The notes under the pieces are model-generated. The model made no database searches. It worked only from the letters and a program-made list of their open reading frames with translations, and was not told the origin of the DNA. This document shows, piece by piece, positions 14,461-14,806 of a DNA stretch of 39,673 bases (position 1 is the first letter of the stretch; every line of letters starts with the position of its first letter). The stretch is from IMG/VR virus record IMGVR_UViG_3300049893_000805, positions 1-39,673 of that record; one strand, given 5' to 3'. The translations under genes were made by a program, and so were the position numbers. Origin of the DNA: a virus.

Positions 14461-14790
14461 TATGCTAGGCTTATTCCCATGTCGCACGGTCCAGCCTCGG
14501 CGCGACAGACGCCGTCCAGCCGCGGCGGAAAAGCTGGCGCCCCGCGACTCGCGTAGCGGGGTGAACCTGAACCGACCGGGCGTTGTACCCGGACGAGGGA
14601 ACGCCGCCATTGATCAGGCCAACTGCCGAGGCGTGACAAGCCGGGAGAGACCGGCACTGGTGCGCCAGCCCGGCTACCCGTACACCGCGTTCGCGACGGT
14701 GGTTTAAGTACGGTGAGAGCACCGACCCGCGCCGGGACGTGTAACCAACACGATGAAAAGATGGTGACAAGCCGGGAGAGACCGGCAACT
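14461..14790 (+). ncRNA. Candidate structured non-coding RNA with tandem units
   Basis: This 350-bp gap between coding genes holds no convincing reading frame but many stems: TGTCGC (14480) with GCGACA (14502), CCAGC (14516) with GCTGG (14533), CCCCGC (14540) with GCGGGG (14556), CCGGG (14576) with CCCGG (14588), GCCGG with CCGGC at 14640-14655, CTGG with CCAG near 14657-14668, CCGTAC with GTACGG near 14678-14713, CGTGT with ACACG near 14738-14752, and GCCGG with CCGGC at 14771-14786. Two related units can be aligned, each running from a GGTGA...ACCGACC hairpin to an identical 24-base hairpin element. The second unit ends just before the AGGAGGCA site of the RecA-like gene, so a 5'-leader regulatory RNA is one option; a free ncRNA or an origin is another. 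No known family is recognised. Confidence 0.45.
14633..14787 (+). repeat. Two identical 24-base hairpin-forming direct repeats
   Basis: Copies at 14633-14656 and 14764-14787 are identical over 24 bases, starting GTGACAAG and each containing the stem GCCGG-GAGAGA-CCGGC. The copies are 131 bases apart. The bases 5' of each copy also show related hairpins, so the exact repeat marks the 3' end of two homologous structural units. Confidence 0.8.
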
Positions 14791-14806
14791 AACTCAGGAG
14801 GCAACG

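Follow-up and report, generated by a model that had tools for sequence, protein, structure and literature searches.

GOLLD and ROOL are RNAs of phages and prophages found near tRNA islands (PMC12286853). HK022 put (putL and putR) is a phage RNA that works without a protein and folds into two stem-loops over about 70 nt (PMC9378689); the VIPR vrRNAs are phage-encoded RNAs of about 100 nt, sometimes arranged in arrays, in which 9–16 tandem YNNGG repeats lie upstream of a constant tail that possesses a pseudoknot in one clade (PMC13142463, preprint). RNA C and RNA D of T4 (species 1 and 2) are small stable RNAs of a tRNA cluster. The window analyzed here, i.e., the whole stretch of viral DNA of 39,673 nt, carries tandem copies of what sequence comparison identifies as a phage-borne structured RNA family (the element), and this family shares some properties with each of these RNAs.

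Like GOLLD and ROOL, the element is a phage-borne structured RNA often situated near tRNA genes, and two loci (L073 and L077) contain GOLLD as well; however, GOLLD and ROOL are RNA cages of 400–800 nt or more, whereas the element spans about 60–130 nt and has another structure. The Rfam models of GOLLD and ROOL gave no match at the element, the GOLLD matches in L073 and L077 being elsewhere in the locus. In phage phiCbK (L077) and in L073, GOLLD, tRNA genes and the element were clustered, and phiCbK also carried a permuted tmRNA. HK022 put and the element are both small phage RNAs with two domains, but put is suggested at most as an analogue in function and differs in location and architecture; identity with put was rejected, since scanning the HK022 genome with the covariance model of the family, R1 (this one direction of search), gave nothing up to E 10. 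The element resembles the vrRNAs in its length of about 100 nt, in joining a variable part to a constant 3′ part and in occurring in tandem, but it lacks the GGY/NN repeats and its tail is unrelated. GG at period 5 in the 70 nt upstream of the element showed no excess (mean 2.43 versus 2.54 in shuffles), R1 found nothing significant in the 50 kb of phage SUSP1 scanned, and the repeat-and-tail stretches of SUSP1 look unrelated; on these grounds a vrRNA was rejected. T4 RNA C and RNA D, as small stable RNAs of a phage tRNA cluster, may be similar but have no GACA-P3 module (see below), and no R1 match was found in T4.

At the gathering score, no Rfam 15 model matched at the element, either in the window or in the related loci scanned (some 40), in agreement with the sequence-only reading, which recognized no known phage RNA family; scans at low thresholds returned chance-level scores alone. 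A literature search, poor in subscription papers, found no earlier description of the element. The family is uncatalogued in Rfam 15, and a prior description elsewhere is possible. Other candidates were also rejected: a CsrA sponge, in that the GGA is not wholly inside the loop and hosts such as Caulobacter are not known to have CsrA; an HDV-like ribozyme, in that the strand order differs and Rfam gave no match; and a mimic of the sarcin-ricin loop, in that GAGA and GACC are the sole common parts.

The gap upstream of the Sak4-like gene and its two units

In the window, a gap of about 350 nt separates a primase-like ORF (end 14456) from the Sak4-like gene (start 14807), among helicase, primase and recombination genes. 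A conserved protein frame was sought across the region; the ORFs crossing the gap had no PHROG match and no protein signal was seen in it, in agreement with its being non-coding as first read. The block GTGACAAGCCGGGAGAGACCGGCA is present twice in identical form (nt 14633–14656 and 14764–14787), 131 nt apart, confirming the 24-base element noted in both units, and its second copy stops 9 nt before AGGAGG (nt 14796–14801), the Shine-Dalgarno sequence of the Sak4-like gene, so that unit 2 does lie next to the ribosome site of that gene. The recurrence of the block is far above chance: its exact 21-nt core occurs in 36 viral-contig stretches. The 24-base block forms the 3′ module of the RNA family that Rfam 15 lacks. 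BLAST against phages with the whole gap of 354 nt gave no match, and relatives were found only with the 30-nt 3′ module. Of the two alignable units proposed from the sequence, the 3′ modules are alignable and the remainder is not. Homology of the unit starts, described as GGTGA...ACCGACC, was not borne out: the comparative model of unit 1 places CCTGA in another helix, although CGGTG-AGAG-CACCG of unit 2 is a plausible hairpin.

The predicted features of both units are listed in Table 1. Helix A encloses the 5′ strand of P2 as well, so that P2 of unit 1 is a pseudoknot in the model. A rival local hairpin in unit 1 (GGCGTT, nt 14579–14584, with AACGCC, nt 14600–14605) would take the same P2 strand. 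In unit 2, the layout agrees with the inner-helix trend of the family (see below); an earlier reading of this unit, with a helix TGGTT/AACCA and P2 as ACC/GGT, gave way to CGTGT/ACACG and a P2 of ACCA/TGGT. For both units, the outer helices are to be taken as models rather than as proven.

Table 1. Predicted structural features of the two units (positions in the window)
Feature	Position (nt)	Strand	Remark
Unit 1 helix A (outer)	CCTGA 14566-14570 / TCAGG 14614-14618	+	Model; position follows the family trend; weakest part of unit 1
Unit 1 internal hairpin CCGGG-CGTTGTA-CCCGG	14576-14592	+	Enclosed by helix A
Unit 1 P2	ACGCC 14601-14605 / GGCGT 14630-14634	+	Family-wide covarying 5-bp helix
Unit 1 linker GACAA	14635-14639	+	Part of invariant module 14635-14656
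Unit 1 P3 GCCGG-GAGAGA-CCGGC, then A	14640-14655	+	Exact 21-mer in 36 viral-contig stretches; family P3 complementarity
Inter-unit hairpin CGGTG-AGAG-CACCG, 5′ to unit 2	14711-14724	+	Predicted by folding of unit 2
Unit 2 S1	CGTGT 14738-14742 / ACACG 14748-14752	+	Present in the minimum-energy fold
Unit 2 P2 (4 bp)	ACCA 14744-14747 (S1 loop) / TGGT 14762-14765	+	H-type pseudoknot with S1
Unit 2 A-rich connecting loop ATGAAAAGA	14753-14761	+	Part of pseudoknot 14738-14765
Unit 2 linker GACAA	14766-14770	+	Part of invariant module 14766-14787
Unit 2 P3, then A	14771-14786	+	Covered by R1 match 14745-14789

The match of R1 to unit 1 covered nt 14598–14658 (55.2 bits, E 3e-14). Unit 2, which was outside the training set, was matched at nt 14745–14789 with 38.6 bits (E 1.5e-9), R1 aligning just two P2 pairs there. 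Minimum-free-energy folding of the single sequence is uninformative and barely exceeds chance, and comparison is the evidence: the fold of the whole 350 nt had z = -1.2, with 13 of 100 shuffles equally good, and those of units 1 and 2 had z = -1.5 and z = -2.6, respectively. The count of at least nine plausible stems given by the sequence-only reading is by these values not above chance. The tandem structured RNA that it proposed gained support, in that compensatory base changes were seen in homologues and unit 2 was found by a covariance model trained without it.

Two observations concern the sequence of the gap itself. Over nt 14579–14605, P2 of unit 1 and the possible GGCGTT/AACGCC pairing would be two mutually exclusive folds. 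Further upstream, at nt 14489–14562 (first 110 nt of the gap, 5′ of unit 1), GC-rich repeats were observed, with GTCCAGCC present twice and CCCCGCGAC...GTAGCGGGG, for which no relation to the family was detected.

Base pairing and distribution of the family

The collected set comprised at least 309 non-identical copies in at least 286 stretches, from unrelated bacterial viruses and mostly from metagenomic phages. Beyond the exact core, search patterns in which the stem was left free or shortened yielded many additional copies, two of these scans giving minimum counts. Invariance of GACA and GAGAGA in this set is partly due to ascertainment, because the search patterns fixed those letters wholly or partly. 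In a scan that left three stem positions free per side, the P3 stem was complementary in 68 of 73 copies, compared with roughly 5% for random triplets, and the stem types included CGG/CCG, GGG/CCC, AGG/CCU and GGA/UCC. P3 has 4–5 bp and the loop GAGAGA, or GAGAG-N-A in outliers. For P2, the 5 nt before GACA had an exact upstream complement in 49.8% of copies versus 8.7% in tail-swapped controls; at 6 nt no excess was seen, and thus P2 consists of five base pairs, ending in G-U across the family. An alignment of 43 sequences, with rows selected for having the complement, showed 76 cells with double changes versus 17.8 in shuffles; because of this selection, the unbiased support for P2 comes from the swap test. 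Alignment A2 used a shortened P2 loop, with N in place of missing positions. On comparative grounds, the 5-bp helix P2, the GACA(A) linker and the P3 hairpin were demonstrated.

A helix with 5 bp or more between the P2 loop and the sequence 12–25 nt 5′ of P2, a distance window picked after inspecting the data, was found in 37.9% versus 8.5% of controls; unit 1 (gap 30, J 11) falls outside this tight window. An inner helix of 4 bp flanking the 5′ strand of P2 was present in 26% versus 9%. In many members, comparison supports a hairpin around this strand, which makes the domain an H-type pseudoknot. A subtype of four sequences had double changes in both the outer helix and P2, 20 of 500 shuffles of this small sample scoring as high, and some copies, including unit 1 of the window, have competing local folds. 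The 3′ border after P3 consists of A (74%) and C (57%), followed by A/U-rich sequence from +4 to +8 and then background; the motif RNWTT occurred there in 22.6% versus about 9%.

A compact subtype possesses a small hairpin P2; a second hairpin, whose loop is GUMGCKM, lies 16–22 nt 5′ of GACA. In T4 rnaD (L085:1554-1672, minus strand), the hairpin ACCGG-GUCGCUA-CCGGU has the same loop as this subtype (L070 and L071) and fits GUMGCKM, a likeness of one short motif noticed post hoc; T4 RNA C contains UUGA-GUAGCG-UCAA. A hairpin module common to RNAs of phage tRNA clusters is possible. In another subtype (L119, L122, L129, L131, L150, L153, L155 and L254), GCGACACCUGC is conserved upstream and GGUGUGACAG at P2; several of these loci have two copies, with some partner copies degenerate.

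BLAST with the 30-nt 3′ modules reached named phages, mostly within unannotated gaps. Model matches were obtained, among others, in Synechococcus phage MinM2, Caulobacter phage phiCbK and relatives, Cronobacter phage CS01, Pseudomonas phage Itty13, Morganella phage IME1369_02 and, partially, Microcystis phage Mwe-JY26. The P1-like phage D6 and Bordetella phage MW2 showed BLAST similarity but no R1 match, and their membership is doubtful. None of the plasmids searched carried the element, and one subtype probe had no match in E. coli genomes. Among 298 further Pseudomonadota genomes, four had a match, indicating a phage rather than a cellular element. One bacterial genome (G125) had three matches on three contigs (L348, L352 and L353), probably several prophages. 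Annotated hypothetical proteins overlap the element on the opposite strand in two cases, gp163 of CcrColossus (L081:2436-2645) and an ORF of PSTRCR_117lys (L342:2894-3376), which may be spurious gene calls.

Genomic settings of the element

Within 300 nt of the 308 copies considered, tRNA genes were on the same strand in 46 cases and on the opposite strand in none, and in L049, L034 and L053 a copy lies directly between tRNA genes. Two or three copies were present in 22 loci, always on one strand and spaced by 61–820 nt; MinM2 has a tandem pair. The neighboring genes scattered into 115 upstream and 111 downstream similarity clusters, and thus no gene is linked to the element. Type III toxin-antitoxin RNAs are ToxI-like tandem repeats of short pseudoknots placed immediately 5′ of a toxin gene; downstream of the element, the recurrent families seen were a head-tail adaptor and HNH genes, and Rfam gave no match. 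Upstream genes showed a preference: about 22 of 98 encoded capsid, tail-tube or ssDNA-binding proteins, versus at least 2 among 96 ORFs picked at random from these loci, counted among the matches listed (Fisher P about 1e-5, with related phages possibly counted repeatedly in the 98). These included capsid proteins of the SU10 (6), Mu gpT (3), HK97 (1) and cap_E (1) types and a further capsid-like protein (1), tail tube proteins (3), and Enc34 or DUF669 ssDNA-binding proteins (7). Terminator-like sites were located downstream in 3 of 297 copies. A Shine-Dalgarno sequence with a start codon within 60 nt downstream was present for 25% of copies versus 11% in the control. The conserved pairing, strand specificity, mobility among gene contexts and preference for positions behind gene kinds that are usually highly expressed were all demonstrated.

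In the A3/A4 loci, a gene with an Acb2/Tad1 hairpin domain was found once upstream and once downstream, and one downstream gene encoded CsrA. In L198, L208 and L264, copies of one subtype follow Mu-like gpT capsid genes on their 3′ side. The Mu-gpT-DE motif of Weinberg et al. (2017) is reportedly located downstream of Mu-like gpT genes, and the subtype may overlap with this motif. The models of Rfam 15, which may not include Mu-gpT-DE, gave no match to the gpT-flanking subtype.

Possible roles of the element

We consider it about an even chance (probability near 0.5) that the element gives a small stable RNA that is cut from abundant phage transcripts and acts in trans via GACA-P3, a reading drawn from sequence patterns. 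The element would be released by processing of abundant polycistronic transcripts, with a putative cut perhaps in the A/U-rich segment 4–8 nt after P3. In the resulting small stable RNA, the GACA-P3 module would bind a putative partner common to many bacteria, such as the ribosome, RNA polymerase, a nuclease or an RNA-targeting defence protein, and the RNA could serve, e.g., as a decoy or an inhibitor, with the dose raised by tandem copies. Several results speak against action in trans: the excess of Shine-Dalgarno sequences with starts just downstream; the preferred position behind capsid and SSB genes, which suits a cis role in the 3′-UTR equally well; the share of the search patterns in the invariance of GACA and GAGAGA; and the competing local folds in some copies.

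Such a cis role is a possible though less probable account. An RNase E-type cut in the A/U-rich segment behind P3 would leave the pseudoknot and P3 to block 3′-to-5′ exonucleases, so that the message of the capsid, tail-tube or SSB gene preceding the element outlasts the rest of the operon. The enrichment right after genes of highly expressed types, among them several unrelated capsid families, fits this account, as do the A/U-rich border and its RNWTT motif; in the absence of terminators, the 3′ end must, by this argument, come from processing. It leaves unexplained the copies between tRNA genes, and also the conservation of GACA and of the loop across hosts with different nucleases; to block exonucleases, a stable structure should be enough by itself. 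By analogy to put, the fold might instead bind RNA polymerase as a nascent-RNA antiterminator and make it insensitive to terminators within long untranslated stretches or distal parts of operons, e.g., tRNA clusters. The position on the coding strand within long operons and tRNA clusters, the near lack of terminators just downstream and the precedent of a protein-independent RNA of similar size agree with this, but put lies near early promoters, whereas the element is mostly mid-operon or after capsid genes; together with the missing R1 match in HK022, this renders antitermination unlikely.

A regulatory leader of the Sak4-like gene, whether riboswitch or protein-binding, as suggested by the sequence-only reading, is favored by the closeness of unit 2 to AGGAGG. 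It is very improbable and has been largely refuted, since five viral loci with Sak4 relatives (L001–L005, 42–58% identity) have no copy and the downstream genes elsewhere are unrelated. A DNA element, e.g., an origin of replication with many inverted repeats, would suit the helicase, primase and recombination genes around the units in the window and had been offered as the alternative; the 46:0 strand ratio for tRNA genes, tandem copies on one strand, scattered genomic positions, which in other phages include sites behind genes for capsid and tail proteins, and the fact that base pairing, not the DNA repeats, is conserved make it highly improbable. A guide RNA of a VIPR system, a further mark of which is a linked vipr (RAMP) gene, would account for a variable part joined to a constant 3′ tail, and length, arrays and the pseudoknot tail of one clade are common to both; nevertheless, with neither the GG periodicity nor a relation to SUSP1, and with no single linked neighbor family by similarity clustering, it is extremely unlikely.

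Returning to the RNA acting in trans, a narrower version is tentative and rather doubtful, namely that the element is an accessory RNA gene of tailed phages whose hosts range from cyanobacteria to alpha- and gammaproteobacteria, and that it would neutralize a widely conserved host factor or an RNA-targeting defence via GACA-P3. If true, this version would make the element an RNA counterpart of the widespread anti-defence proteins. A structured RNA with near-invariant nucleotides that is present in hundreds of phage contigs and not in Rfam would mean that phage annotation has missed one of its common non-coding genes. Its sites, behind capsid, tail-tube and SSB genes or within tRNA clusters, suggest a common need of phages, either for an abundant RNA effector or for control of message stability.
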